NCBI GenBank assembly: GCA_029688905.1
Contig: JARULB010000004.1
Span: 248,001 to 312,000, forward strand
Direction: 5' to 3'
Length of the DNA: 64,000 nt
Source: Balneolales bacterium ANBcel1
GTDB lineage: Bacteria; Bacteroidota; Rhodothermia; Balneolales; Natronogracilivirgulaceae
Shown here: piece by piece, positions 18,811 through 61,985 of the stretch
Numbering within the stretch: position 1 is the first letter of the stretch
Layout: each line of letters starts with the position of its first letter
Translations under genes and position numbers: made by a program
The notes under the pieces: generated by a model
What the model saw: only the letters and a program-made list of their open reading frames with translations
Database searches by the model: none
What the model was told of the DNA's origin: nothing

Positions 18811-19902
18811 TCAGACCAGTTTTCGGGGTATATTCGGATGAATCCCGCAACATATTTCATAGGGGATGGTACCGATGGCATCTGCCCACAGCGCGGCATG
18901 GTTTCGCTCTCCTCCCATCAGCGTCACTTCCGTACCGGGCTTGTAGCGGTCATCTCCCAGCCAAACCATGATATAGTCCATGGTTACGCATCCTGCTTGC
19001 GGATACCACTTTCCGTCGATTTCCACCGGCATCAGCCCGGACAAATTACGGCGATAACCGTCGGCATAGCCGGAGGGAATGATTGCCAGCCGGCCGTCCG
19101 CCGGTGCTTCCCATGTCGCGCCGTAGCTCACCGTATCCCCTTTGCGGATGATCTTGCAGTCGGCCACCCGGGATTTCCACCGCATCACGGGGCGGAATTC
19201 CGGTGATGGGTCAGGCGTCGGGTCGTAGCCGTACAGGGCGATGCCGTGGCGCACCATATCGCCATGGCTGTCGGGGTGATCGAGCGAAGCGGCGGAGTTC
19301 GCTGCGTGGAATATCATCTGCCGGCTATCCGGCAAACGGTCGTAAAAAAAACTGCGCATCTCCCGAAACCGCTCTTTCTGGAGTTCCATATGGCTGGAGC
19401 CGGATTCATCGGCAGTAGCGAAGTGGGTCATCACCCCTTCGCAATGCAGATCGGCCCGCTCTTCCACCATCCGGGCGACCTCCTCCAGGGCGCGATGCGA
19501 AAAACCGAGCCGGCCCATACCCGTATCGATCTCCATATGATAGCGCGTACCTGACTTCAACAAACGGAAATGGTCGGGAGCGCTCACTACCGCAATCAGA
19601 TCGTGTGAAAGGAAGGTCCCGGCGGCCTCCCGGACGGGCACCCCGAAAACCAGGATATCCCGGGTGATACCCGCATCCCTGAGCTCCATGCCTTCGGCAA
19701 CATTCGCCACTGCGAAGGCATCATACGTGTCCGCCAGTACGGGGGCAATCAACGAGGCTCCGTGCCCGTAGGCATTGGCCTTGACAACGGCCATGGACCG
19801 TACCCCCGGCGCCAGATTTTTCTGAAGTTGCCGGGCGTTGGCTCGCAACGACTCCCGGTCCAGCTCCAGACAGGATTGATAAAACGGATACAGGGTGTTC
19901 AT
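18811..19902 (-). CDS. alr: Alanine racemase, fold-III type, copy 1
   Basis: Converts L-alanine to D-alanine for peptidoglycan. Canonical Alr features are present: MAVVKANAYGHG with PLP Lys41, MEIDTGMGRLGF, the HAANSAAS segment, GIALYGYDP, and DTVSYGATW with the catalytic Tyr (260) followed by IIPSGYADGYRR. Length of 363 residues is standard. A second canonical copy lies at 47413-48573. The site-2-protease-like gene is upstream on the same strand, 21 bases away, so the two may be co-transcribed. Confidence 0.95.
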   Translation of the reverse strand: MNTLYPFYQSCLELDRESLRANARQLQKNLAPGVRSMAVVKANAYGHGASLIAPVLADTYDAFAVANVAEGMELRDAGITRDILVFGVPVREAAGTFLSHDLIAVVSAPDHFRLLKSGTRYHMEIDTGMGRLGFSHRALEEVARMVEERADLHCEGVMTHFATADESGSSHMELQKERFREMRSFFYDRLPDSRQMIFHAANSAASLDHPDSHGDMVRHGIALYGYDPTPDPSPEFRPVMRWKSRVADCKIIRKGDTVSYGATWEAPADGRLAIIPSGYADGYRRNLSGLMPVEIDGKWYPQAGCVTMDYIMVWLGDDRYKPGTEVTLMGGERNHAALWADAIGTIPYEICCGIHPNIPRKLV

Positions 19903-25722: not shown

Positions 25723-27609
25723 CTACTGATTCATCGACAGAAGAAACTCGTGGTTGCTTCGGGTTCCCTTCATTTTATCGAGCAGAAACTCCATGGCTTC
25801 ATGGGGCGTCATGGTGGTAAGGTAACGCCGCAACAGCACCACTTTTTCACGCTCGGCCTCGTCAACCAGCAAATCCTCTCTTCGCGTACCGCTCTTGAAC
25901 ACATCAATGGACGGGAAAATACGCCGCTCGGAGAGACGGCGATCCAGCACCAGTTCCATGTTACCGGTGCCCTTGAACTCCTCAAAGATCACATCGTCCA
26001 TCCGCGAGCCGGTATCCACCAGGGCGGTGGCGACGATCGTCAGGCTTCCGCCGTCTTCGATATTCCGGGCAGAGCTGAAAAGTTTTCGAGGCTTTTTCAG
26101 TGCCTCGGCATCCACCCCGCCCGACATGGTGCGGCCGGTGTTGGAACAGATGTTGTATGCGCGTCCCAATCGGGTAATCGAGTCCATAAGCACCAGCACG
26201 TCGTGTCCGCTCTCCACCATGCGTTTCGCTTTTTCAAAAACGATCTCCGCAAGTCCGATATGATTTTCCGGCTTCTGGTCGAAGGTAGACGCAACTACCT
26301 CGGCGCTGGTCACATTTCGCTCCATTTCGGTAACTTCCTCAGGGCGCTCATCCACCAGCAGAATGATGATTTTGGTGTCGGGATTGTTGGCGGCCACTGC
26401 GTTGGCGATGTTGCGCAGAATGGTGGTTTTGCCCGTCTTGGGCTGGGCCACAATCATGCCCCGCTGCCCTTTTCCGATAGGGGCAAACAGATCGACCAGC
26501 CGGGTGGTGTAGTCCGGAGCGCTGTACTCCAGAACATAGCGGCTGTCCGGGTAGACCGGAAGCAGGTCATCAAAATCCTTCCGGGAATCCATATTCGACG
26601 GTACCCGGCCGTTGACGCCATCCACCCGAAGCAGGGCAAAATAGCGTTCCCCGATTTTCGGTGGCCGGATAACCCCGATGACACTGTCCCCTTGTTTCAG
26701 GCAGAAGCGCTTGATCTGTGACGGTGATACATAGATATCATCCGGGCTGGCCGAATAGTGATAATTGACCGATCGCAGAAAGCCGTACCCGTCGGGAAGA
26801 ATTTCGAGAGTGCCTTCGTTCATTAAATGTCCGCCGAGCTGGGGCTCAATCTCGCTAAGCCGCTCTTCCAGGGTTTCGGCTTCAGAGATCGGAAGCTTGT
26901 TATTCACATGCTTTTTGCCGCTTTCCTGATCCTGGCTCTGCTGCTTTTGTTTTTTGGGGGATGGGGATGGAGCCTGTGGCTCATTTCTGCTTTTCTGCTT
27001 TTTACCGCGGACTTTCCCGCCCTCTTTTCGGGATGGCTTTCTTTCGGACGTGTCGGATTTGCGGAAACCGGAGGGTTGTCCCTCTCCCGCTGATTTACGC
27101 GTGTCCGGGGCAGACTTACGGCCCTGATCGGCAGGCTTCCGGGAACCCTCTTCTTTGCGATGCTGGTCTGGCGCTCCCTTACGCTCTGCCGGTGACTCCC
27201 CGCCCGGTCCAGAGCTCTCCTTCATATTGCCAGGATGCTCCTGTTGGTCAAATGAATTTTGCGATTCACCTGTCTCAGGTCCATTCTGAGGATTTCGCGA
27301 TGTGGAATCGTCTTCCACTTTCCGGGGCTTCTTGTACTTGCTCAGGTCCTTCTTCCGGTACATGGGCACATCGGGATTACTCCCGGAACCTGCCTTTTCT
27401 TCGTCAAAGGAAATCAGCTGCTGCGCCTGTTGGCTGGCAACTTCCCGAAGCCGCTCGATGAGTGTTTGTTTTCGCAATCCGGTCACAGGTTTAAGGCCCG
27501 ATTTTCTGGCCAGGTCCTGCAATTCTTTAAGCGTCTTGTTTTGTATATGATCCAGTTCTTTCAATGCTATACCAACTTGGTGTAGGTAAAATTCATAATC
27601 CGCAGGCAT
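25723..27609 (-). CDS. rho: Transcription termination factor Rho
   Basis: Hexameric RNA helicase for factor-dependent termination. An N-terminal Rho_N helix bundle ([21 protein letters not shown]) is followed by a charged Lys/Ser/Glu-rich insert (about residues 75-245). The cold-shock RNA-binding domain ([13 protein letters not shown]) and the RecA-like motor follow: QPKTGKTT Walker A (about 386-392), [16 protein letters not shown], and [20 protein letters not shown]. 628 residues is long against E. coli (419) because of the insert, which is usual in Bacteroidota-type Rho. Confidence 0.97.
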
Positions 27610-42903: not shown

Positions 42904-45900
42904 TTAAGTCACATCCTGCCGCACCGGGTGCTGGTGCGCAACTCCTGCATGCTCCGGCCGGTTGTCGGCGGTCGTTGTTTCCGAGCTGAAATAGGAGTAA
43001 ATGGCCGGAATCACAAACAAGGTGAGGATACTGGCGAAAATGAGTCCCCCGATAATGGCCAGGCCCATGGAAACCCGGCTCTCGGATCCGGCGCCCAGGG
43101 CAAGGGCAATCGGCGTCACACCGAGCACTGTCGACAGGGAAGTCATAAGGATAGGCCGGAATCGAACCGCAGCCGCATCGGTAATCGCATCATGGATATT
43201 CATTCCCTGTGCCTTACGCTGATTGGCAAACTCCACAATCAGGATGGCGTTCTTCGAGACCAGGCCGATGAGCATGATAATACCGATCTGGCTGAAAATA
43301 TTGAAGCTTTCATGGAAGTACCAGAGGGTCATGAACGCGCCGAAAACCGCCAGTGGCACCGTAAAAAGAATAATAAACGGATCCCGGAAACTCTCGAACT
43401 GCGCGCTAAGTACCAGATATATCAGAACGATAGCCAGAATGAAGGCGAAAAAAAGGCTGTCGGCGCTTTCCACAAAATCCCGCGAGGCACCGCTGAGACT
43501 GGTGGTGAACGCCTCATCCAGCACTATGGCCGCAACTTCATCCATGGCGCGGATACCGTCATCCATGGCGTAACCGGGAGCGAGACCGGCCGAAACCGTC
43601 GCCGACACGTAACGGTCGAAACGGAAACGTTGCGGCGGACTGCTTCGCTCCTGGAGCGTCACCAGATTGTCGAGCTGTATCTGGACACCGTTGCTGCCTG
43701 TTACATACAGATTGCGGATACTGGCCGGACTGCCCCGCCTTTCGCGCTCAAGCTGACCGATCACCTCATACTGCTTGCCGTCCAATATGAAGAACCCGAG
43801 CCGCTGATCAGTAAGGGCCAGCTGTACCGTCCTGGCGATATCCCTGGCCGAAACCCCGACCGCCCGGCTGCGGTCCCGGTCAATGGACATCTCAATTTCG
43901 GGTTTGTTGAACTTCAGGTTTACATCCACCACGGAAAACTCGGAGCGCTCTCCGGCACGATCCAGGAATTCGGGGAGCAATGCCTCCAGACGATCAAATG
44001 TGGGCGCCTGAATAACATACTGGATGGGAAGTCCGCCGCGCCGCTGGCCGATCGTCTGGTCCTGGCTGACGAAGTTGCGGGTGGCAGGGTATTGCTGCAG
44101 ATAACGGTTCAGTTCGTCGGCGATCTGCATCTGGGACCGGCCTCTGTCCGACGGATCGTTGAGGATTAGATTCATGAAACCGGAATTGACCGAACTTGCC
44201 GCCCCGAAACCCGGCGAAGTGACCGAGATAATGGCCTCGTTTTCCGGTACCGTCTCCTGGATACCGCGTATCATGCGATCCATGTGGTGATCCATGTATT
44301 CAAAAGTTACGCCTTCCGGACCGGAAACAGAGACACGCACTCGGCTTCGGTCCTCCAGCGGAGCCAGCTCCGCAGGCAGCTGGGTCCAGAATAAAAACAT
44401 CCCGCCACCGGCAAGGCCCATGATCACAAAAGCGACCCAGCGAACCTTCATGAATGTTTGCAGGGAGTCACGATAAACCCGGTTGAGACCGGCGAAAAAG
44501 GGTTCGGTGGCCCGGTACAGCGCGTTTTTCTTCTTACGCTGTTTCAGAATTTTCGAACAGAGCATCGGGGAGAGTGTGAGTGCCACGAACGACGAGATAA
44601 TCACCACTCCGGCCATCACCACGCCGAATTCACGGAACAGGCGTCCGGTGAGCCCTTCGAGGAAAATCACCGGCATGAATACCGCCACCAGTGCCGTGGT
44701 GGTGGAGATCACCGCGAAAAAGATTTCGCCCACGCCCAGGAGCGCCGCCCGGGTGGGCTCCATCCCCCGCTCGATCTTGGCGTAGATATTTTCCATGACG
44801 ACAATCGAGTCGTCCACCACCAGGCCGATGGCCAGCACCAGTCCGAGCAGCGTAAGCACATTGATGGAGAACCCGGCCACGAACATGATAAAGAAGGAAC
44901 CGATGATGGCGATAGGGATAACAATCACCGGAATAATGGTCGTGCGCCAGTCCCGAAGAAACAGAAAGATGACGGTAACCACCAGAAAGAAAGCGATCAG
45001 AATCGTTTGCTGGACCTCATTGATGGAATCGCGGATGAACTCGGTGGTATCGAATCCGATGCCGGTGGAGATGTCGCCCGGCAGATCACGCTCGATTTCC
45101 GCCACTCTTTTGTAGAATTCATCGGTGATGGCAATATTGTTGGCCCCGGGCTGCGGAATCAGCACCACCCCCACCATGGGGATGCCGTCGCGCTTCAGGA
45201 TGGTGCGCTCGTTTTGCGCGCCGATCTCCGCCCTTCCAATATCCTCAAAACGCACCACCGAGCCGTTCTCTTCCCGGATGATCATCCGGTTGAACTGTTC
45301 GGCGGTTTCCAGCCGGCTCAGCGTGCGCACCGTCAGTTCGGTGAACAATCCCTCAATCCGCCCCGACGGCAGCTCCACGTTTTCGCGGTCCAGCGCAGCC
45401 TGCACATCTGTTGCGGTAACATCGAAGGAGGCCATTTTATCGGGATCCATCCAGAGCCGCATCGCATACCGCTTTTCGCCCCAGATGCGCACTTCACTCA
45501 CGCCGGGTATAGTCTGCAGCCGCTCCTTGAATACCGTGTTGGCGATATCGCTGAGGTCGAGCAGGTTTCGCGTGTTGCTCTGTACATTGAGAAACACGAT
45601 CGGACTGGCATCGGCATCGGCCTTGGAGACCACCGGATTGTCCACGTCGGGCGGAAGACTCCTTACCGCGCGGGAAACCCGGTCACGGACATCGTTCGCC
45701 GCCGCCTCCAGATCCACATCCAGGTCAAATTCCACGGTTACGGTGCTTCGGCCCTCCCGGCTGACCGACGTCATGTTACGGATGCCCGCAATGCCGTTGA
45801 GCTGCTCTTCCAGCGGCTCGGTGATCTGTGACTCGATCACTTCGGCGTTGGCACCGGGGTAGTTGGTCTGCACCGTGACGATCGGCGGATCCACCGACGG

Positions 45901-46011
45901 GTATTCCCTCACCCCCAGATTGAAGTAACCAAGCACCCCGAACAGCACGATCATGATGGACATGACCGTGGCCAGGACCGGACGGCGAATACTCACAGCG
46001 GACAGGCTCAT
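42904..46011 (-). CDS. RND efflux permease, AcrB/HAE1 type
   Basis: Inner-membrane proton-driven exporter of drugs or other small molecules. ATG 46011 is chosen because its ATGA overlaps the adaptor stop; the frame is open slightly further. Twelve membrane segments are visible in two repeats. The proton-relay pair Asp-Asp is in AIGLVVDDSIVVMENIY, and the TM10 Lys in IGLVSKNAILIVEFANQ. The porter domain has LPPDVDNPVVSKADADASP. Length of 1035 residues is normal. No TolC-type channel gene is in the window. Confidence 0.95.
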   Translation of the reverse strand: MSLSAVSIRRPVLATVMSIMIVLFGVLGYFNLGVREYPSVDPPIVTVQTNYPGANAEVIESQITEPLEEQLNGIAGIRNMTSVSREGRSTVTVEFDLDVDLEAAANDVRDRVSRAVRSLPPDVDNPVVSKADADASPIVFLNVQSNTRNLLDLSDIANTVFKERLQTIPGVSEVRIWGEKRYAMRLWMDPDKMASFDVTATDVQAALDRENVELPSGRIEGLFTELTVRTLSRLETAEQFNRMIIREENGSVVRFEDIGRAEIGAQNERTILKRDGIPMVGVVLIPQPGANNIAITDEFYKRVAEIERDLPGDISTGIGFDTTEFIRDSINEVQQTILIAFFLVVTVIFLFLRDWRTTIIPVIVIPIAIIGSFFIMFVAGFSINVLTLLGLVLAIGLVVDDSIVVMENIYAKIERGMEPTRAALLGVGEIFFAVISTTTALVAVFMPVIFLEGLTGRLFREFGVVMAGVVIISSFVALTLSPMLCSKILKQRKKKNALYRATEPFFAGLNRVYRDSLQTFMKVRWVAFVIMGLAGGGMFLFWTQLPAELAPLEDRSRVRVSVSGPEGVTFEYMDHHMDRMIRGIQETVPENEAIISVTSPGFGAASSVNSGFMNLILNDPSDRGRSQMQIADELNRYLQQYPATRNFVSQDQTIGQRRGGLPIQYVIQAPTFDRLEALLPEFLDRAGERSEFSVVDVNLKFNKPEIEMSIDRDRSRAVGVSARDIARTVQLALTDQRLGFFILDGKQYEVIGQLERERRGSPASIRNLYVTGSNGVQIQLDNLVTLQERSSPPQRFRFDRYVSATVSAGLAPGYAMDDGIRAMDEVAAIVLDEAFTTSLSGASRDFVESADSLFFAFILAIVLIYLVLSAQFESFRDPFIILFTVPLAVFGAFMTLWYFHESFNIFSQIGIIMLIGLVSKNAILIVEFANQRKAQGMNIHDAITDAAAVRFRPILMTSLSTVLGVTPIALALGAGSESRVSMGLAIIGGLIFASILTLFVIPAIYSYFSSETTTADNRPEHAGVAHQHPVRQDVT

Positions 46012-47159
46012 CGGTTCTCTCCCGGGCTTTGGTTCCTGTTCCATGCCTGCGAACCCGTCCCGTTATTGTTCGCATCAAACTCTTCCGTGGCCGTATTAAT
46101 ACGTACCGGCATGCCGTCGCGCACCTGCAGCAGTCCGGTGGTAATGACCGTATCGCCGGGTGCCAGGCCTTCCCGGATCACCACGCGCTGGTCGGTTCGG
46201 GTGCCGATTTCAACGTGACGCTCCTGAACCCTGCCGCCGGAGTAGAGATAAACCTTGTAGCCGGCGATTTCCGGCACCAGCGCCTCGGAAGGAATCAACA
46301 GCGCATCCTCAAGCTGCCGGAGGTCGACCTCGACTCGTGCGAATGCTCCCGGAAATATCCGTAAATCCGCATTGTCGGCAATGGCCCGCATACGCAGGGT
46401 ACGGGTATCACGGTCCACTCTGGGCTGGATCGCGTATATCTCGCCTTCTCTCTCATTTTCAACCCCTTCCACACGAAAACGCACGGTCTGGCCTCTTGCC
46501 ACCGAGGACCGAAACCGCTCGGGAATGGAGAACTCGATTTTTATGGTGTCGATTTTCTGCAGGCTGGAGATGGTGGACTGCGGGGTGACATAGCTGCCTG
46601 TACTGACCTCCTTCAGCCCGATAATACCGTCAAAAGGCGCCCGGATTTCGGTCTGATCGATCAGAGCCTGAACCCGGTCGTGCTGAGCAATCAGCGTATT
46701 CAATTCGTTCAGGACGATATCGTAATCCTCCCTGGCGATGGCGTTGCGCCCAAGAAGCTCATCCTGCCTCTGCTCGCGGATGCGCGCCAGATTGATCTGG
46801 TAGGATATCCGCCGTTTCTCCTGCCGTAGCTCGGCATCGTTCATTTTCACCAGCAAATTACCTTCCCGGACGTCACTGTCCTCCCGGAAGTGGATGGCGG
46901 TAATGCGTCCCGATACCTCCGGCCTCACATAAATCTCTTCATCGGCCAGAATGTTTCCGGTTGCCTGGACCGTCTCCCTGAACGATTCCGGAGTTACGAT
47001 AAAACCGTCAACCGCAAGGCTGCCTCTGTCAGCTCCCTGGCCGGCAGCCGGACCCTCCTGCGCATTTCCGCTCCCGCTCCAGAGCCGGATCCACAATAAA
47101 AAACCAATAACAGCCAGCAGCAGCACGGTGGCCAGGGTACGTCTAAATATCGGGCTCAT
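46008..47159 (-). CDS. RND efflux periplasmic adaptor (membrane fusion protein)
   Basis: Bridges the RND permease to an outer-membrane channel. The frame is open from 47240, but ATG 47159 directly precedes a membrane anchor (RRTLATVLLLAVIGFLLWI). Barrel-sandwich and alpha-hairpin segments are clear: GRITAIHFREDSDVREGNLLVKMND, LIDQTEIRAPFDGIIGLKEVSTGSYV, then the beta-barrel with GEIYAIQPRVDRDTRTLRMRA. Length of 383 residues is typical. It overlaps the permease start by four bases. An inverted repeat at 47233-47248 lies upstream. Confidence 0.94.
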   Translation of the reverse strand: MSPIFRRTLATVLLLAVIGFLLWIRLWSGSGNAQEGPAAGQGADRGSLAVDGFIVTPESFRETVQATGNILADEEIYVRPEVSGRITAIHFREDSDVREGNLLVKMNDAELRQEKRRISYQINLARIREQRQDELLGRNAIAREDYDIVLNELNTLIAQHDRVQALIDQTEIRAPFDGIIGLKEVSTGSYVTPQSTISSLQKIDTIKIEFSIPERFRSSVARGQTVRFRVEGVENEREGEIYAIQPRVDRDTRTLRMRAIADNADLRIFPGAFARVEVDLRQLEDALLIPSEALVPEIAGYKVYLYSGGRVQERHVEIGTRTDQRVVIREGLAPGDTVITTGLLQVRDGMPVRINTATEEFDANNNGTGSQAWNRNQSPGENR

Positions 47160-47232
47160 AAGCGAAAACTCATTTACAGGTATGGGTAATCCAACGATGT
47201 GATTTGACAGCCGAAAGAGTTGCAAACCGGCA

Positions 47233-47412: not shown

Positions 47413-48573
47413 CTAATCCACGATGAAACGGGGGATGTCGCGCGGTAGCCTCACAAGAGTTTCATAATTGACGTTGTTCAGCAGGTCACTGAACGATGAC
47501 ACGGTGATTCTGTTGTTTTTCTGGCTTCCGACCAGTACCACCTCATCGCCTCGTTTGACCCCCGGACAGTGTGAAACGTCCACGATCAGCATATTCATAT
47601 TGACCATGCCGATCACCGGAACCCTGCGGCCGTGAACAAGCACTTTGCCGAGGTTGCTGAGGCTTCGGTTGAACCCGTGGCTGTACCCGACCGGAATCGT
47701 CGCCGTCACCGTATCATCCGTAGCCTGATAGGCCGTGCCGTATCCGATGAATTCACCCGAGTTGACCGTTTTAATGCTCATGATCCTGGTTTTCCAGCTG
47801 ATTATCTGACGAAGCGGGTTTTCGGTCATTTTTTTGCGGCCGTTCTGCGTCAGATACTGCATGTGTGTCTCTTTGCTGGGCCAGTACCCGTATTGCGCAA
47901 TACCTATGCGCACCATATTCATCCGGGTTTGCGGATAGGAAATGAGCGGTGCGGAGCAAGCGGTATGACGCATCTCCGAAGCTACCCCCTTTTTCCGCAG
48001 ATACCACTGGTACCGGTTGAAGTTGGCGATCTGGTTCTGGATTCTCAGATAGTTTGCCACACTCTCGGCGCCCGCAAAATGGGTGTTGATACCCTTCACA
48101 TGGAGGTGTTCCCCGTTGTCGAGCAGAAACCCGACAAGCTTTTCGCGATCCTCCCAGGCGAAACCGATTCGGTTCATGCCGGTTTCCAGTTCGACATGGA
48201 TCTGTGCTCTCTTTTTCTGCTCCACAGCGGTTTTGACGGCTGCACGCAGCCGGTCGAACTCAAAAACATAAAATGAGATGTCGTTTTCGATGGCCCAGTC
48301 GAGCTCGTTGTCGTCGATCATTCCCATAATCATCACATGGGAGTGCTCATTCTTGACCATGTGGGCACGCAGGGCTTCATCCGCACTGTGCACCCCGAAA
48401 TAGTCGACCCCGCACTCCTCGGCCAGTGATACGAAGTGCTCGATACCGTGCCCGTAGGCATTGCCTTTTACCACGGAACAGAAACGGGCTTCCGGGCCCG
48501 CCAGCCCCTTCAAAAAACGAAGGTTGGCTTTCAGCGCCGTTTTGTTGATTTCAATATAGGATGTGTGAAACAT
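47413..48573 (-). CDS. alr: Alanine racemase, fold-III type, copy 2
   Basis: Second canonical Alr in the window. It has FCSVVKGNAYGHG with PLP Lys36, ELETGMNRIGF, HTACSAPLI, IGIAQYGYWPS and GYGTAYQAT with Tyr278, followed by TIPVGYSHGFNR. It differs in length (386) and motif detail from the copy at 18811-19902 (for example VKGNAYGHG against VKANAYGHG), so they are not a recent duplication. It ends a run of six minus-strand genes with an M20 amidohydrolase, M23 peptidase, another racemase, GNAT and Na+ symporter, hinting at a salvage role rather than basic cell-wall supply. Confidence 0.93.
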   Translation of the reverse strand: MFHTSYIEINKTALKANLRFLKGLAGPEARFCSVVKGNAYGHGIEHFVSLAEECGVDYFGVHSADEALRAHMVKNEHSHVMIMGMIDDNELDWAIENDISFYVFEFDRLRAAVKTAVEQKKRAQIHVELETGMNRIGFAWEDREKLVGFLLDNGEHLHVKGINTHFAGAESVANYLRIQNQIANFNRYQWYLRKKGVASEMRHTACSAPLISYPQTRMNMVRIGIAQYGYWPSKETHMQYLTQNGRKKMTENPLRQIISWKTRIMSIKTVNSGEFIGYGTAYQATDDTVTATIPVGYSHGFNRSLSNLGKVLVHGRRVPVIGMVNMNMLIVDVSHCPGVKRGDEVVLVGSQKNNRITVSSFSDLLNNVNYETLVRLPRDIPRFIVD

Positions 48574-48666
48574 GAGATGGATCAGAACGTGGGTGTCTCC
48601 GGCTGCTATATATAACTATATAATACGTGTTAAAAAAACTCTGGCGCCATCAGGGCGATACCGGGT

Positions 48667-49833
48667 TTACCGCATTTTCAGGCGATCCGCAATACCCAGA
48701 AATAACGCCAGTCCGGTTTCCAGGAGTTCATCCGGAAAATCATATTCGGCATCGTGCATCTGGGGATGCTGTTCGCCGGCGCCCAGCCCGAACAGGGCTC
48801 CGTGATATCGTTTTGTGAAATGGCCGAAATCCTCCGACCACGAAAAGGGACGGGGGATGTGCCGAACGTCACTGACCCTGGCGGCTGCGCCTTTCCCGGA
48901 TTCGCGGCTCTCAGCAAGTCCCCGCGCAACTTCCTCTACAAGCGCCACCGATTCAGGGGTATTGCTGACCGGCTCAAACGACTCCGTCCATTCGTAATCC
49001 ATATCCAGCCGCCATTGTGACGCAACAGACCGCGTCATTTCCACGGCCTTTTCCCCGATCCGCTTCAGGTCATCGGGTTGGTGCGCCCGCAGGGTCGCCA
49101 TCAGTTCGGCGTATCCGGGCGTGGTCCCGAACGCCCGTTCTCCAATCCGGGCATGGATGATGGTAACGAGTCCCGCCCGGTCGAACGGTATGATGGTTCG
49201 CGGCAGCGCCTGCCAGTCGCGAATGAGTGCTGCAACCGCCGAAGACGGACTCCGCGCGTTCTCCGGATGGGCGGCGTGTGAGGTACTGCCTTTCAGGCGT
49301 ACAATCAATCCACAGGAACCGGCTGCAAACACCCCCTCACCCAAAAGCACCGAATGGAGGGGATATCCCGGGAGATTATGCAGCGCAAACACATGATCGG
49401 GAGCGATATCGGGCCATTTGTCGTCCTGAAGCATGCGCTCGGCACCCTCGCCGGTCTCTTCGGCCGGCTGAAAAAGCAGATACACCTTGCCCCGCCGAAG
49501 CGGATTCGCCTGCAGGTCACGGGCCAGGCCGATGAGAATGGCAATGTGCCCGTCATGTCCGCATTTGTGGGAAACCCCTTCCTGCAATGACGCGTAGGGA
49601 ATATCCAGCGATTCATGGATCGTAAGCGCGTCAAGCTCCGCGCGATACAGCAGCGACGGTCCTTCCCTGCCGCTGTCCAGGACCGCCAGCAGACCATGCC
49701 CGCCGATTCCCTCCGTGATGTCTTCAACCCCGGCCTCCCTCAGTTGTTCGGCAACAAAAGCGGCCGTCTTTTCTTCGTTGTGTGCCGTTTCGGCAAGAGT
49801 GTGCAGTTCCTTTCGGATTTGGACAAGATCCAT
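48667..49833 (-). CDS. M20-family amidohydrolase
   Basis: Zinc-dependent amidohydrolase of the hippurate hydrolase/N-acyl-L-amino-acid deacylase group. The metal site SHKCGHDGHIAIL (Cys91, His93) is intact, and FQPAEETGEGAERM carries the paired Glu (125/126) used as catalytic base and ligand. AELDALTIHES and later LFGLGAGEQHP are normal for the family. Length of 388 residues is typical. No signal peptide, so cytosolic. It lies 72 bases after the M23-like gene and 93 before alr on the same strand. N-acyl or peptide-linked amino acid hydrolysis is plausible from context. Confidence 0.9.
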   Translation of the reverse strand: MDLVQIRKELHTLAETAHNEEKTAAFVAEQLREAGVEDITEGIGGHGLLAVLDSGREGPSLLYRAELDALTIHESLDIPYASLQEGVSHKCGHDGHIAILIGLARDLQANPLRRGKVYLLFQPAEETGEGAERMLQDDKWPDIAPDHVFALHNLPGYPLHSVLLGEGVFAAGSCGLIVRLKGSTSHAAHPENARSPSSAVAALIRDWQALPRTIIPFDRAGLVTIIHARIGERAFGTTPGYAELMATLRAHQPDDLKRIGEKAVEMTRSVASQWRLDMDYEWTESFEPVSNTPESVALVEEVARGLAESRESGKGAAARVSDVRHIPRPFSWSEDFGHFTKRYHGALFGLGAGEQHPQMHDAEYDFPDELLETGLALFLGIADRLKMR

Positions 49834-49905
49834 GAAAAATAAAACGCTATTTCGGTGGTAACAATAAACCTTTCATAGATACCGAAAAACAGCGCGAAAA
49901 TAAAC

Positions 49906-50595
49906 TCAATAATAGCGGCCGGTAACCAGGGCCGGATCGGGATACCGCCCCAACGCTTCCGGAAGATCCCTTTCCGAAACCACCCCCGGCATGTCCGGTT
50001 CCGAAGGCGGTTCCAGCGACAGCTGGAAATGGAGATGCGGAGCCCATCCGCCGTTTTCATGCTCCCCTCCCACCAGGGCGATTTGCTGCCCTTTGCCGAA
50101 CGGCATCCCGGGGAACAAACCGGACAGGGAGCCTCTGGACAGGTGTCCGTAGAGCGCAAACAGTGCTCCTTCAGACGTATTTTCTGCCGTTTCCTGTTGC
50201 CCGTAGCGATTTCCTTTGGCCCGATCCCGAATCTGCTTCAGCAGATGCCGCACCACCGGTCCCTCATGCCGGGTGATGATGGTAGGCCCGTAATCCCCGT
50301 CGTTGGCATTGTCACGGAACATCAGCACCTCTCCATCGGCAAAAGCGTAAACAGGCGTCCCCTCCGGTACCCAGAAATCGAGCCCCATATGAATATCCCG
50401 CACCCCGCCAAAAAGTACCGAGCGATACATGTCACGGCGCTTTTCGTTATAGCGCCCGATGGATGGCGGATCGAGCGATATGGCATTGGGGTCGTAACCC
50501 CGGCTCAGATCGAGCACACGGTAACGATCGTCAATACGGACAACCGGATGGAAGCCAGCGTTGCCGGCTCTATCGTGCGGTTTTTCGATATTCAT
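49906..50595 (-). CDS. M23-fold peptidase without signal peptide
   Basis: LytM/M23-type zinc peptidase domain. The motif HMGLD (His69/Asp73) follows FGGVRDI and is followed by FWVPEGTPVYAFADGEV; YGHLS (His151) and WAPHLHFQL (His187, His189) complete a full metal site. Unusually, no signal peptide or membrane helix is visible, so the protein may act inside the cell. M23 domains without export signals are also known fused to class-III aminotransferases in PLP-linked proteins. At 229 residues it is a bare domain. Its neighbours are racemases and an amidohydrolase. The role in muropeptide or D-amino-acid metabolism is inferred. Confidence 0.82.
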   Translation of the reverse strand: MNIEKPHDRAGNAGFHPVVRIDDRYRVLDLSRGYDPNAISLDPPSIGRYNEKRRDMYRSVLFGGVRDIHMGLDFWVPEGTPVYAFADGEVLMFRDNANDGDYGPTIITRHEGPVVRHLLKQIRDRAKGNRYGQQETAENTSEGALFALYGHLSRGSLSGLFPGMPFGKGQQIALVGGEHENGGWAPHLHFQLSLEPPSEPDMPGVVSERDLPEALGRYPDPALVTGRYY

Positions 50596-50644
50596 GGAAG
50601 TGCTTGATCAAGAAACTGCCGGCTCCGCTGCCACGCCGGAACGT

Positions 50645-51715
50645 TTACTCAACCACCTTGTCGATATAATTCGAGTTCATGAGTCCGAGTGCGCCAACGT
50701 ATTTCAGGCGAAACGACACCATATCACCCACTTTGAGGTCGCGTTCGTTTTGTCCCACATTGACCACCAACATATCCGAACTGGCATCCACGATTTCGAT
50801 ATCCTTGCTCTTCGGGATCAGAAACTCCGGCTGGATATCGAGATATCCGATATCCAGAATCGCACGAAACGCGGTTTTTCCATACAGATCTTCGTCGATT
50901 TCAAGGGTTTCACCCTGCGGATTGGCCGCCAGGTCGCCGCTCGGAACCATCGGCTTTTCATGGATTTCAATTACCTGGGTGTAAAGCTCCAGCACGGAGG
51001 GCTCCATCCCTTCGATGGTTTCACCGGAAAACAGGTCGATTCCGAAATAGAGCGCTTCGCCCACCCTGAAATGGTTGACGCTTTCGGGCAGGTCACCGCG
51101 CAGAATCAGCGGCAGCACCACCGTAGTTCCGCCGGACACCCAGCGGATGGTGCGATTGAATTTCAGCTCGATGATCTGTTTGTACAGGGCAAGCTGGATG
51201 AGCTTGTCGGAGCTGGGCATTACGCCGTGGAGGCAGTTGAGGTTGGTTCCCAGTCCGATGACTTCGATATTCGGCAGTTTGAAGATTTCGCCGTAAAAAT
51301 CGATCAAATCTTCGCGCATCACTCCCTCCCGCAGGTCACCCATTTCGATCATGATGATGATCATATGCTTGCGGTTCTGTTTGACCGCCTCTTCCGACAG
51401 CAGCCGAATGGTTTCCAACTCGGTGTTGAAGCTGACATCGGCATATTTCACCACATCACTGATGTACTTTTTGGGTGGGGGCTTGATGTAAACGGTTTGG
51501 ACATCCGGATCGATGCTCTTGACCACCTTCAGGTTACTTACCCTGGAGTCGTGGATTTCACGTGCACCGAGATTGATCACCTCGCTTATGTACTCCCTGT
51601 TCCCGCAGAACAGTTTGGTGACCACTCCCCATTCAATGTCATGCTTGTCGAAAAGACTCTCCAGAAAAGCATAATTGTGTTTTAGTTTGTCACGATACAG
51701 CTTCAGATAAGCCAT
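50645..51715 (-). CDS. Alanine/ornithine racemase-like PLP enzyme
   Basis: Fold-III PLP enzyme of the alanine/ornithine racemase family, distinct from classical Alr. The PLP Lys is in GVVTKLFCGN (Lys34). Other conserved pieces are GAREIHDSRVSNLK, MIEMGDLREGV, GLGTNLNCLHG, VSGGTTVVLP and FRVGEALYFGIDLFSG, the last typical of this family. Length of 356 residues is normal. It begins two bases after the GNAT stop, which suggests tight coupling of the two. Substrate unknown. Confidence 0.9.
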   Translation of the reverse strand: MAYLKLYRDKLKHNYAFLESLFDKHDIEWGVVTKLFCGNREYISEVINLGAREIHDSRVSNLKVVKSIDPDVQTVYIKPPPKKYISDVVKYADVSFNTELETIRLLSEEAVKQNRKHMIIIMIEMGDLREGVMREDLIDFYGEIFKLPNIEVIGLGTNLNCLHGVMPSSDKLIQLALYKQIIELKFNRTIRWVSGGTTVVLPLILRGDLPESVNHFRVGEALYFGIDLFSGETIEGMEPSVLELYTQVIEIHEKPMVPSGDLAANPQGETLEIDEDLYGKTAFRAILDIGYLDIQPEFLIPKSKDIEIVDASSDMLVVNVGQNERDLKVGDMVSFRLKYVGALGLMNSNYIDKVVE

Positions 51716-51717
51716 AA

Positions 51718-52224
51718 TTATTTTTTAAACCTCATTTCGAGATATTTGTTCGTAAATCCGATACGTTCGTACAGCCGTTTGGCTGGGTTGTCCGGCTCGA
51801 CATGGAGCGCGACATCGCCGTCGGCATTTTGAATGGCCTGCTCCATCAGGGATTTGCCGATTCCGCGCCCCCTGGTGGAGGCATCCACGGCAATATAGAC
51901 CAGCAGGTTCTCGGGAATGTATCCGCTCATGCCGGTTTCGCAGGAAACGACGACACCAAGCAGTTTTCCATGGTCGCCGGTCGAGCCTTCGGAACCGGCG
52001 GCCCCGGCATGCTGTCCGGGAGTGCCCTCAAACGCAGCGAGAATAAAACCCCGGCGGTGTTCGACGATTCCCAGGGCATATTCCAGGCAATTCATGATCT
52101 GCTCCCTCGGGTCGCGAAAACGGTCGAGGTGCTCATGCAGAAAGTCGGCGATCTGATCGGGACTGACCGAGGCCTCCCTGTAGTTTTCCGGGGTAATGGT
52201 TTCGATGGTAAAATTTTTACTCAT
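51718..52224 (-). CDS. GNAT-family N-acetyltransferase
   Basis: Acetyl-CoA-dependent transferase. The acetyl-CoA pyrophosphate motif is RGRGIGKSLMEQAI in VYIAVDASTRGRG..., followed by LHVEPDNPAKRLYERIGFTNK, all standard for GNAT. Length of 168 residues fits one domain. It is squeezed between the symporter (12 bases) and the racemase (2 bases), so these three are very likely one transcript. Acetylation of an amino acid or amino sugar is a reasonable guess from context. Confidence 0.9.
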   Translation of the reverse strand: MSKNFTIETITPENYREASVSPDQIADFLHEHLDRFRDPREQIMNCLEYALGIVEHRRGFILAAFEGTPGQHAGAAGSEGSTGDHGKLLGVVVSCETGMSGYIPENLLVYIAVDASTRGRGIGKSLMEQAIQNADGDVALHVEPDNPAKRLYERIGFTNKYLEMRFKK

Positions 52225-52236
52225 AATGGTATAACG

Positions 52237-53703
52237 TTATTTATTATCAGGTATCGCATAGGAAAGCCCCACAAAAACCAGCAGAGATACTCCCAGTCCA
52301 AAGATAATGGGATCCAGGCCAAACGGCATGGTTATATGCCAGGGCATGGCAAAAGGCAGGCTGTCGTCGGAAAGCAGAGTAAGCGCCAGCGTGAGCGTCC
52401 CGCCCGTGATCATGGACCACCAGGCCGCTGCACTGCTGCTCCGCTTCCAGTACAACCCGCCGACGATCGGAACCAGCAGCGCCGAGACCATGAACGCGTA
52501 GGAATAGAGCATGATCTGCAGCACGGTATCGAAGACTGCTGCCAGCATGAACGCCAGGAGGCCGAGTACCAGGGTCACAATTTGGGACAATCGGATGGCG
52601 GAAAGGCGTCCGGTGTCAATTTTGAACCACTTTTCAAGAATATCGGTGGTGACATTTCCAGACGCGGCCACCAGACAGCTGTCGGCAGTGGACATGATGG
52701 CCGAGAAATAGGCGGACATCATCAGGCCCATGAGTCCGACCGGCAGAACCGTCCGCAGCAACATCGGCAGGCCTTCTTCATGATGCATCTCCGAGGCCAT
52801 TTCGTAGCCCATGTAGGCGAACATCCCCTGGTCAGCGGCCACCCGGGCAAACAGGCCGAGCAGCACGCCCATGAACGCCATCACCGGCCATTCCAGAAGT
52901 CCGGCCAGATACCACGCCTTTTTTGCCTCTTTCTCTGTTCGTGTGGCATAGATGCGTTGGTAGAGGGTCATCCCCACAAACCATATCGGCAGGATGGTGA
53001 TGCCCCAGTTGACCAGCTGCTGCCAGCTGATATTCCTCAGTGAAAGCATTTCCGGGGGAACTGTCTCGCGGATCGCCTCGATGCCCCCCACAGCGAAATA
53101 GCCGATGGGAATGCCGATAAAAATGAGTCCGCCTAACAACAAAATCCATTGGAAGGTATCGGTGTAGATGACGGCCTTGATCCCGCCCATCACGGTGTAG
53201 ACGATAATAATGAATGCCATGAGATAAAGCGCGGCATCCAGGCTCATACCGTCAAATGAGGCGGAGGCCAGCCGTGCGCCGGCCAGCATCTGTGAGCTGC
53301 TGAAGCCGACATACCCGATGGCCGAGATGATCCCCGCCAGAAAAGCTACCCTGGCGTTAAAGAAGTGGTTGAACACCTCGGGCATGGTGAAAAAGCCCTG
53401 CTCTGTGGAGAGGTTCTTGACTTTGGGTATGAGGAAAACCGCGGCAAGCCAGGCACCGAGAAACCCGGTGAACAGCATCCATGAACCGGCGATTCCCATC
53501 AGAAAACCGAGACCGCCCAGGCCGATGGAAAATCCGCCCCCGACATCGGTGGCGACCACGGAGAGCCCGACATGCCCGTATCCCATTTTCCTGCCGCCAA
53601 TATAGTACTCCTCGGCGCCCTTATTTCTGAAATAGAAATAGGTTCCGATCCCAAGAATTACGAGGAAATAGAGAACAAATACGGTCAGATCAACAGGATT
53701 CAT
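52237..53703 (-). CDS. Sodium:solute symporter (SSS family)
   Basis: Inner-membrane Na+-coupled importer. About 12-13 hydrophobic segments are visible, starting with LTVFVLYFLVILGIGTYFYFRNKG, the SSS-type EEYYIGGRKMGYGHVGLSVVATDVGGG, and a GYVGFSSSQMLAGARLAS segment in TM4-5. Length of 488 residues is normal. Substrate cannot be assigned, but it heads the cluster with GNAT, racemase, M23 and M20 genes, which suggests an amino-acid or peptide-like substrate. Confidence 0.92.
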   Translation of the reverse strand: MNPVDLTVFVLYFLVILGIGTYFYFRNKGAEEYYIGGRKMGYGHVGLSVVATDVGGGFSIGLGGLGFLMGIAGSWMLFTGFLGAWLAAVFLIPKVKNLSTEQGFFTMPEVFNHFFNARVAFLAGIISAIGYVGFSSSQMLAGARLASASFDGMSLDAALYLMAFIIIVYTVMGGIKAVIYTDTFQWILLLGGLIFIGIPIGYFAVGGIEAIRETVPPEMLSLRNISWQQLVNWGITILPIWFVGMTLYQRIYATRTEKEAKKAWYLAGLLEWPVMAFMGVLLGLFARVAADQGMFAYMGYEMASEMHHEEGLPMLLRTVLPVGLMGLMMSAYFSAIMSTADSCLVAASGNVTTDILEKWFKIDTGRLSAIRLSQIVTLVLGLLAFMLAAVFDTVLQIMLYSYAFMVSALLVPIVGGLYWKRSSSAAAWWSMITGGTLTLALTLLSDDSLPFAMPWHITMPFGLDPIIFGLGVSLLVFVGLSYAIPDNK

Positions 53704-53885
53704 CTGTCGGAGGGTATTTCAGTCCGGCAAGAACAGGCGTTGAAACGTATGGTGAGTGCGTGCGGAATTACAGGACACGATTTTTGGTTACAAAGTGACG
53801 CAACAGCCTCCAAAGATTGCCATTATTACAGGCAATAGCAAACTGACATCCTGTACGATAATGTGTATCTTGTATATTGCGAGGC

Positions 53886-53921
53886 GAAAAAACAGGCCGT
53901 AATCAATGCAATCCGGCCTGT
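53886..53921 (-). terminator. Terminator-like hairpin between osmC and the symporter
   Basis: ACAGGCCG (53892-53899) and CGGCCTGT (53914-53921) form a perfect 8-pair stem with a 14-base loop. On the minus strand it is followed by a T-run (53886-53892). It is about 185 bases upstream of the symporter start and also lies in the osmC leader. It could terminate antisense RNA or act as a leader attenuator. Confidence 0.5.
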
Positions 53922-53972
53922 CCCGGCACCCACGCCTCCAACGGTAACCATCCACCCGGCAACACGATTCTC

Positions 53973-54392
53973 ATGAAGATAAAACTGCACCGTATCGACG
54001 ACGCTTTTCATCTGAAGGCCTCCAATGAACTTGGTAACAGCATAGAAATGGACGGCGCTCCAAAAATCGGCGGGTCCGACAAGGCGGCCCGACCCATGGA
54101 GGTGCTGCTGATGAGCCTGGCCGGCTGCAGCTCCATGGATGTGCTGGATATCCTGAAAAAACAGCGCCAGCACGTCGAAGAGTACCGGGTGGAAGTCGAT
54201 GCGAAGCGCGATCAGGAGAACATCCCCGCCCTTTTCACCGACGTGCATGTCCATTTCCATGTGAAGGGCGACCTGAGTGAGAAGAAAGTGGAGCGGGCCG
54301 TGCGGATGTCGATGGAAACCTACTGCTCGGTAACCAAAATACTCGAGAAAACGGCCCGGATCACGTGGGAAGCGACGGTGGAACAGGGGTGA
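53973..54392 (+). CDS. OsmC-family peroxiredoxin
   Basis: Probable peroxide-reducing or redox protein. ATG 53973 is chosen over the upstream frame because it starts the OsmC fold directly. The paired redox Cys are present: LMSLAGCSSMDVLDIL (Cys52) and METYCSVTKIL (Cys118). SNELGNSIEMDGAPKIGG and ARPMEVLL are typical of the YhfA-like branch. Length of 139 residues is normal. It is divergent from the symporter operon. Confidence 0.93.
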   Translation: MKIKLHRIDDAFHLKASNELGNSIEMDGAPKIGGSDKAARPMEVLLMSLAGCSSMDVLDILKKQRQHVEEYRVEVDAKRDQENIPALFTDVHVHFHVKGDLSEKKVERAVRMSMETYCSVTKILEKTARITWEATVEQG

Positions 54393-60267: not shown

Positions 60268-60617
60268 ATGTTTAGAATTATAAGGTACCGTTTTTTACTA
60301 TCCCTGTCAAGCATAAACATACGCTTTCTTTCGGGCACCGTTTTCCGGGATCCTTCGGCTTATGCTGACCGGCATTCTGCACCGCTTCCTATATTCCACA
60401 AGCCGAATTGCCGGGAACCCCGGAACCATCGGCCTGTACCGAAGGCCAACCAACCACCGGCATGGCCGGATGAACGCGTGTTCCGGCTTTTCGCAACCGG
60501 GACGGACGCCTCGCTCACAATGCCGGTTTTGGCGGGGCAATGGTTTGGTCTTCAAAATGCAAATTGGTAATTTGCGATACTGTAGAAATGTTTATTTATC
60601 ACAAAAAGAGAAGCTTC
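60268..60617. other. Region between tRNA-fMet and lat
   Basis: No gene is supported in these 350 bases. Short overlapping ORFs have no family features. The part next to lat becomes AT-rich and holds the 16-base motif TACTGTAGAAATGTTT (60578-60593), also found before metZ. AAGAGAAG (about 60607-60613) may be a weak ribosome-binding site for lat. Confidence 0.5.
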
Positions 60618-61985
60618 ATGACTCACAAACCCGGCATAACCCCCGATAAAGTTAAGGAAATACTGAACCGGCATATCCTCGCCGACGGCATGGACATGGT
60701 CCTGGATCTTGAAAAAAGTAAAGGACCCTATCTGCACGACGCCGCCGGAAACCGCTCCTACCTGGATTTCTTTACCTTTTTCGCCTCCAATCCCGTCGGG
60801 ATGAATCATCCCAAAATAGTGGATAATGAAGCTTTTCGTGAGAAAATCGGAAGGATCGCTCTTCACAACCCCTCCAATTCCGATATCTATACCCGTGAAT
60901 ATGCCGAATTCATCGACACCTTTTCGCGGATCGGCATCCCCAAAGAGATGCCCCACGCCTTTTTTGTGGCCGGCGGCGGATTGGCCGTCGAGAATGCGCT
61001 TAAAACCGCGTTTGACTGGAAAGTGCGGAAAAACTTCGAAAAGGGATACCGCCACGAGAAAGGACATATGGTCCTCCATTTCGATGAGGCCTTTCACGGG
61101 CGTACCGGCTATACCATGTCGCTGACCAACTCCCAGCCTATCAAGGTCGCCTATTTCCCGAAGTTCAACTGGCCGCGCCTGGTCAATCCCAAAATGGTCT
61201 TCCCCATGGATGAAGCCCATACGGCGCAGGTCATCGAACAGGAGCAACGGGCACTGAATCAGGCGGAACGGTACTTCGAGCAACATAAAGACGACATCGC
61301 CGCCATCATCATTGAACCGATCCAGGGCGAGGGCGGTGACAATCACTTCCGCCCCGAGTTTCACAAAGCGCTGCGCGACCTGGCCGACCGGCACGAAGCG
61401 CTGCTGATCCATGATGAGGTGCAGACCGGTGTGGGCCTGACCGGCAAGTTCTGGGCTCATGAGCATTACGTGCAGCCCGACATCCTCGCCTTCGGCAAAA
61501 AAGCCCAGGTATGCGGTATACTCGCGGGCAAGCGGGTGGATGAGGTGAGCGATAATGTCTTTAACGTCTCCTCCCGGTTGAACTCCACCTGGGGCGGCAA
61601 CCTGGTCGATATGATCCGCTTCACCCGGTACCTGGAAATCATTAAAGAGGACAACCTGGTCGATAATTCCGCAAAAACCGGTGCCTACCTGCTCGAGAAG
61701 CTCGGCTCGCTGGCGTCAGAATTTGAATTCGCCAATAATGTTCGGGGACGAGGACTCATGTGCGCGTTTGATCTCATCGATGACGCAACCCGAAGTACGT
61801 TTCTGAAGGCTACCTACGAACACGGCCTGGTTATTTTGCCCAGCGGTGAAAAAACCGTCCGCTTCCGGCCACCACTCACCATCCAGCCCGAACAGATTGA
61901 CGAAGGTATGGAGATCATCCGGAAGTCACTTGCCCAGACCTGGGAACGGTCACCTGCCCTGCGCAGCCATTTCGTGACTTCCTGA
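60618..61985 (+). CDS. lat: L-lysine 6-transaminase
   Basis: Class-III PLP aminotransferase that moves the epsilon-amino group of lysine to 2-oxoglutarate, giving aminoadipate semialdehyde. ATG 60618 (frame open from 60540) starts MTHKPGITPDKVKEIL. Motifs are LDFFTFFASNPVGMNHP, AFFVAGGGLAVENALK, FDEAFHGRTGYTMSLTN, IIEPIQGEGGDNHF, LLIHDEVQTGVGLTGKFWA and the PLP-Lys segment FGKKAQVCGI. Length of 455 residues fits the Lat family. It may feed lysine catabolism. Confidence 0.93.
   Translation: MTHKPGITPDKVKEILNRHILADGMDMVLDLEKSKGPYLHDAAGNRSYLDFFTFFASNPVGMNHPKIVDNEAFREKIGRIALHNPSNSDIYTREYAEFIDTFSRIGIPKEMPHAFFVAGGGLAVENALKTAFDWKVRKNFEKGYRHEKGHMVLHFDEAFHGRTGYTMSLTNSQPIKVAYFPKFNWPRLVNPKMVFPMDEAHTAQVIEQEQRALNQAERYFEQHKDDIAAIIIEPIQGEGGDNHFRPEFHKALRDLADRHEALLIHDEVQTGVGLTGKFWAHEHYVQPDILAFGKKAQVCGILAGKRVDEVSDNVFNVSSRLNSTWGGNLVDMIRFTRYLEIIKEDNLVDNSAKTGAYLLEKLGSLASEFEFANNVRGRGLMCAFDLIDDATRSTFLKATYEHGLVILPSGEKTVRFRPPLTIQPEQIDEGMEIIRKSLAQTWERSPALRSHFVTS

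Follow-up and report, generated by a model that had tools for sequence, protein, structure and literature searches.

An N-acetyltransferase-racemase pair at the core of a recurrent gene cluster in Balneolales bacterium ANBcel1, tentatively read as a D-amino-acid uptake and salvage module

What joins a sodium symporter, an N-acetyltransferase, two amino-acid racemases, a peptidase and an amidohydrolase in one run of genes? The question is raised by a 64,000-nucleotide stretch of Balneolales bacterium ANBcel1 (assembly GCA_029688905.1, contig JARULB010000004.1, positions 248,001 to 312,000), called the window throughout. Positions 47413-53703 of the window hold six open reading frames (ORFs), all on the minus strand. 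In the order of transcription they encode an SSS-family Na+/solute symporter, a GNAT-fold N-acetyltransferase, a pyridoxal phosphate (PLP)-dependent racemase resembling ornithine racemase (Orr), an M23 peptidase, an M20 amidohydrolase and an alanine racemase (Alr). The strongest result of this analysis is that the GNAT and the Orr-like racemase form a near-obligate pair.

When the racemase was used to search genome contigs, 389 relatives were obtained, and the best 80 loci were retained. The six-gene set recurs among these best 80 of 389, as found by local tblastn with the six proteins and some of their neighbors. Clustering of the ORFs from 99 loci gave the GNAT (92 loci), the racemase (92), the symporter (80), M20 (44), M23 (41), and Alr (38) as the six commonest families. 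The next commonest families occurred in 16 loci each and are, by eye, the succinate dehydrogenase genes of one lineage. The longest-first ORF caller missed the racemase in 7 of the 99 loci, probably through overlapping antisense ORFs, and a six-frame profile search was therefore applied to an even sample. The count was redone on this even phylum sample of 392 genomes because the best 80 loci are those of the closest relatives. At a presence threshold of E 1e-20, the Orr-like racemase was found in 69 of the 392 genomes. Within 6 kb of it, the GNAT was present in 65 of the 69 loci, the symporter in 50, M20 in 34, M23 in 30, and Alr in 30. These counts are lower bounds, since several loci end at contig ends; the 69 loci are 68 relatives and the window itself, and the search profiles derive from the 99-locus set, which overlaps partly with them.

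The pairing was also measured independently of gene position. The GNAT alignment was searched genome-wide in the same 392 genomes at E 1e-18; it was built from racemase-linked rows, and a strongly diverged unlinked GNAT could escape it. The GNAT was found in 69 genomes, 67 of which carry both genes (Fisher p 1.4e-70, uncorrected for shared ancestry). Two genomes have the racemase alone (G175 and G355) and two have the GNAT alone (G095 and G409). Among the 69 racemase loci, four showed no GNAT within 6 kb. Two of these (L133 and L152) end at contig ends, and both genomes have the GNAT on another contig. The other two (L116 of G175 and L172 of G355) hold the two lowest-scoring racemases, that of L172 being the lowest. 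The L116 racemase passes the cut-off of the ornithine racemase model with 505.7 bits, and its neighbors resemble, by eye, an ornithine fermentation set. In G095, sdhCAB-like genes are followed by a lone GNAT at a place where relatives carry sdhCAB, symporter, GNAT, and racemase; this GNAT looks like what remained after a deletion. The GNAT of G409 is diverged and scores weakly (93 bits), and it lies beside genes that resemble, by eye, proline biosynthesis.

Because of this near-obligate co-occurrence, the GNAT-racemase pair is regarded as the core of the cluster, and the symporter, M20-Alr, and M23 as additions to it. About half of the 69 loci have the core without M23, M20, or Alr. That the two genes are hardly ever separated suggests that their enzymes share a substrate and carry out a single pair of reactions. 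The sequence-only reading of this DNA had linked all six genes, and this linkage stands; the pair as their core had been missed. Two further arrangements were noticed. In four loci of one family (L103-L106), the GNAT and the racemase stand as a pair by themselves, preceded by a universal-stress-like gene and followed by one resembling a regulator, as judged from sequence starts. In L186 (7210-10684), a diverged GNAT relative lies just ahead of proC-, proB-, and proA-like genes.

The gene order is shuffled between loci. The arrangement of the window, symporter-GNAT-Orr-M23-M20-Alr, is that of its taxonomic order, L140 has M23-M20-Alr-symporter-GNAT-Orr, and L110, from outside the class of the window, has M23-GNAT-Orr-symporter-M20-Alr. 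Further orders are GNAT-Orr-symporter-M20-Alr and symporter-GNAT-M20-Alr-Orr, and symporter-GNAT-Orr or GNAT-Orr also occur by themselves. Neighboring genes are commonly spaced by -4 to +2 bases, especially at the GNAT/racemase and M20/Alr junctions. A shuffled order with retained membership points to function rather than inherited order. The sequence-only reading had named conservation of the neighbors in relatives as a check on its linkage, and recurrent, rearranged clusters are what the relatives show. All six gene families are common among bacteria, and chance neighborhood could on that ground be considered. However, the reshuffled linkage recurs over several families and classes and the genome-wide profiles agree with it; we give chance practically no weight. 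Two loci deserve separate mention. L023 (PWOE01000024.1), titled Candidatus Nealsonbacteria, holds a Balneolales-type cluster with a racemase 88% identical to that of the window, and the contig is probably binned wrongly. In L085 (838-3821), the symporter is 83% and the racemase 65% identical to those of the window, a mosaic that hints at recombination within the module.

What could the substrate of the pair be? The racemase matches the ornithine racemase model NF040742 over almost its whole length with 305.6 bits, under the cut-off of 480. By its sequence it is placed as a sister of ornithine racemase and not as a member. Residue K34 is invariant in 29 sequences. A sequence search of solved structures found no relative of the racemase, and a profile comparison of both racemase families aligned the N-terminal part alone, with a probability of 39.9. 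A basic amino acid is weakly favored as substrate because of the sister relationship to ornithine racemase. RacX of Halocola was considered as the same enzyme and rejected; its catalytic Ala/Cys positions and modeling template are those of another, PLP-independent family (PMC12838360).

The symporter belongs to the SSS family (PF00474, 164.3 bits, over the cut-off of 22.8). It scores 171.8 bits against TIGR00813, under 184, and 150.7 bits against the PutP sodium/proline model TIGR02121, under the cut-off of 515.5. D53 and the stretch ATDVGGGFS are invariant in 24 aligned sequences. The GNAT was modeled by AlphaFold with a pLDDT of 89.1. PLP racemases require a free alpha-amino group; acetylation would therefore precede or follow racemisation, or would hit a side-chain amine.

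The GNAT may act on a protein instead of an amino acid. GNATs near acetyl-CoA synthetase genes are regulators that acetylate protein lysines, and here the GNAT would acetylate a lysine of the racemase protein, for which the near-obligate pairing and the tight spacing could speak. A parallel in Proteobacteria speaks for the amino acid. In 7 of 9 compared proteobacterial plasmid loci (L122, L124, L176, L177, L179, L182, and L183; plasmids of Vibrio and Rhodobacterales), the gene immediately ahead of an Orr-like racemase encodes a DUF1611 protein, and the annotated pairs overlap by 4 bases. The one DUF1611 protein scored, from Vibrio parahaemolyticus, matches the DgcN model with 158.5 bits, under the cut-off of 480. 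Among the plasmid loci outside the nine-locus comparison (L123, L125, L126, L180, and L184), four have no DUF1611 by annotation, and L126, an unannotated record and the lone one from Bacteroidota in the plasmid search, has a GNAT followed by the racemase instead. Two unrelated acetyltransferase types beside one racemase family suggest that N-acetylation goes together with racemisation of the same substrate. The acetyltransferase of the parallel pairs is DgcN-like, and dgcN has been described as the key gene in a pathway for D-amino-acid racemisation (PMC12363236). Because of this parallel, acetylation of an amino acid is favored over that of a protein; nothing in the analysis points to protein acetylation, and the regulator explanation is held to be very improbable.

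The remaining enzymes bear on the question of peptides. The M23 protein scores 53.1 bits against PF01551, and H69, D73, H151, H187, and H189 are invariant in 17 sequences, by which the metal and catalytic motif is kept (we take these to be the HxxxD and HxH metal motif and the GH catalytic histidine). Its model has the normal LytM/lysostaphin fold of peptidoglycan endopeptidases. Among NCBIfam models, the protein matches the middle part of PRK06148 best, ahead of secreted endopeptidases, and three M23 proteins match this stretch with 87.7 to 158.8 bits. No export signal was seen in the 17 M23 sequences (top 12-residue mean hydropathy 1.27, versus 2.96 and 3.11 for exported-type proteins of the window). 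The GNAT, racemase, Alr, and M23 alignments showed no signal-like N-terminus, the highest value being 1.80 in one Alr, and none was seen in the M20 protein of the window, the only M20 sequence checked. The module enzymes therefore look cytoplasmic from their N-termini. M20 scores 210.2 bits against TIGR01891, over the cut-off of 153.75, with H89, C91, H93, E125, E126, H152, H186, and H360, presumably including the metal ligands, invariant in 24 sequences. Alr scores 297.6 bits against TIGR00492, over the cut-off of 168, with K36, R135, R222, and Y278 invariant in 24 sequences; we assume these to be the PLP lysine, catalytic tyrosine, and arginines by analogy with the Geobacillus enzyme.

The genome has two further Alr genes, one at window 18811-19902 (TIGR00492, 292.5 bits) and one on contig C5. 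The Alr of the cluster is thus not the sole source of D-alanine, and a salvage role is favored for it. The Alr of contig C5 (L120) is 44-45% identical to that of the cluster and follows an ATP-grasp gene and a gene for a 683-residue protein without a family match. A putative amidoligase gene lies close to it. This gene group (L120 3250-7973 and 11214-12257) could be another D-amino-acid ligation system.

Alternatively, these enzymes could recycle or degrade the stem peptides of peptidoglycan: imported muropeptides would be cut by M23 and M20, and the racemases would bring D-alanine and a second D residue back into the pool of L forms. The endopeptidase fold of M23, the retained catalytic residues, and the many loci in which Alr adjoins M20 fit this idea. 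However, M23 has no export signal and is nearest to the middle part of PRK06148, M23 and Alr are each found in only 30 of the 69 loci, and SSS symporters are not known to carry peptides. Stem-peptide recycling is considered unlikely. The sequence-only reading had offered D-amino acids or muropeptides as alternatives. Uptake and conversion of D-amino acids remains the best reading, given two racemases and a Na+ symporter. The muropeptide version is weakened further, as none of the six genes encodes a permease for muropeptides, an enzyme that cleaves sugars, or a secreted hydrolase, and about half of the loci do without its peptidase, amidohydrolase, or Alr.

A role in synthesis was weighed as well. 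The racemase and the GNAT would make an acetylated amino acid, either in the D form or with the acetyl group on its side chain; it could serve as an osmolyte, for instance, and the symporter would recover it and M20 degrade it. The GNAT-racemase pair occurs as a stand-alone two-gene unit in families f27 and f36 and in several genomes of f29 and f41, an arrangement that suits synthesis more than uptake. M20 is similar to DoeB2 (NF038260), the deacetylase of the ectoine pathway, with 185.4 bits, but it falls under the cut-off of 550. Judged from sequence starts, the recurrent neighbors include no evident osmotic regulator and no known enzyme for an osmolyte. We judge this role in synthesis improbable.

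The reading preferred here, tentatively and with less than even confidence, is a module for D-amino-acid uptake and salvage around the N-acetyltransferase-racemase pair, with acetylation and racemisation coupled. The Na+ symporter would import an amino acid or a small derivative, and the Orr-like racemase would interconvert the D and L forms of the imported compound. The GNAT would acetylate one of the forms, which may drive racemisation one way or render the D form harmless. M20 would strip acyl groups or cleave short amides, the cytoplasmic M23 may cut short peptides with D residues, and Alr would convert released D-alanine to L-alanine. A wider claim is possible and rather doubtful: that this is a new pathway, widespread in the phylum and convergent with DgcN-DgcA, in which a dedicated GNAT is the obligate partner of a PLP racemase and acetylates an amino acid, and that DgcN-like proteins replace the GNAT in marine Proteobacteria.

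Several observations weigh against the salvage module. Its weakest point is the substrate, which we infer, as we do the direction of flow and the acetylated group. The GNAT fold search matched many GNATs in a generic way, with diverse substrates. Two of the nine compared plasmid loci (L178 and L181) have no DUF1611, and the DUF1611-racemase pairs may serve another pathway. No DgcN match was found in the genome of ANBcel1 itself at E 0.001, and the module is therefore not the DgcN-DgcA pathway. Lysine catabolism as the shared pathway was rejected. A lysine 6-transaminase gene lies upstream of the module in divergent orientation (window 60540-61985, plus strand; TIGR03251, 679.5 bits). Counted by eye, it is within about 17 kb in 18 of the 31 racemase-bearing genomes of the same order. 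Outside the order, again by eye, a strong match (E < 1e-180) was found in 11 of 38 racemase-bearing genomes, against 220 of all 392 genomes that pass the cut-off, which shows no association there. The linkage is probably just local synteny.

The six features are listed in Table 1. The families, the coordinates, and the first gaps of 12 and 2 bases given by the sequence-only reading agree with the ORF list and with Pfam and NCBIfam, which confirmed the family names of all six products. The gaps along the direction of transcription are 12, 2, 49, 72, and 93 bases. The upstream neighbor, an OsmC-family gene (53877-54392), is on the opposite strand, and the run therefore starts at a divergent junction. 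A promoter and terminator scan of the run gave 4 promoter-like sites against a shuffle mean of 5.7, which is no excess, and Rfam gave no RNA family at gathering score near the run. Directly downstream of Alr, on the same strand, lie an RND efflux adaptor and pump (42904-47165, minus). In the 99-locus clustering, the adaptor cluster was present in 12 loci and the pump cluster in 9; this is perhaps only synteny. Elsewhere in the window, a Rho termination factor of 628 aa (25723-27609, minus) is about 200 residues longer than the models of 413-415 positions.

Table 1 Genes of the run in the window, in the order of transcription.
Product	Position	Strand	Details
SSS-family Na+/solute symporter	52237..53703	-	488 aa; first gene of run; PF00474
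GNAT-fold N-acetyltransferase	51718..52224	-	168 aa; half of core pair; PF13508/PF00583
PLP-dependent amino-acid racemase, Ala_racemase_N family	50645..51715	-	356 aa; half of core pair; PF01168
M23-family peptidase without export signal	49906..50595	-	229 aa; PF01551
M20-family amidohydrolase (N-acyl amino-acid hydrolase type)	48667..49833	-	388 aa; TIGR01891
Alanine racemase (Alr)	47413..48573	-	386 aa; TIGR00492; one of three in genome

In sediments and sea water, a large and slowly degraded share of the organic matter consists of D-amino acids, and the known routes for them mostly use oxidases, dehydrogenases, or single racemases. A literature search, with subscription papers mostly outside it, found no description of this gene set or of the racemase. 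Identification of the substrate and reactions shared by the GNAT and the racemase would assign a function to two orphan families, each present in 69 of the 392 sampled genomes (about 1 in 6), and might account for the different acetyltransferases that stand beside Orr-like racemases in different phyla.

Four known systems can be compared with the module. The multi-domain aminotransferase proteins PRK06148 and PRK06149 share the middle stretch of PRK06148 with the M23 of the module; however, the M23 is free-standing, and the kinase and aminotransferase domains that these proteins presumably carry are absent. The Orr of the oxidative ornithine pathway is matched by the module racemase over nearly the whole length of its model, but at a lower score than in L116, and none of the other genes of the ornithine fermentation-like cluster of L116 is present at the module. 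In a Salmonella set of Alr, APC permease, Orr-like racemase, and permease (NZ_CP148876.1), amino-acid transporters likewise adjoin an Orr-like racemase. These are APC permeases where the module has an SSS symporter, and no acetyltransferase is annotated among the neighbors. A similar logic is that of the DgcN-DgcA pathway for D-glutamate, which also joins an N-acetyltransferase to a racemase for the use of D-amino acids, and in which DgcA racemises an N-acetylated amino acid. On the proteobacterial plasmids, Orr-like racemases are coupled with a relative of DgcN. In the module, a GNAT fold stands in the place of DgcN and a PLP racemase in the place of DgcA. What would be new is a D-amino-acid salvage with acetylation that follows a similar logic and is assembled from other parts.

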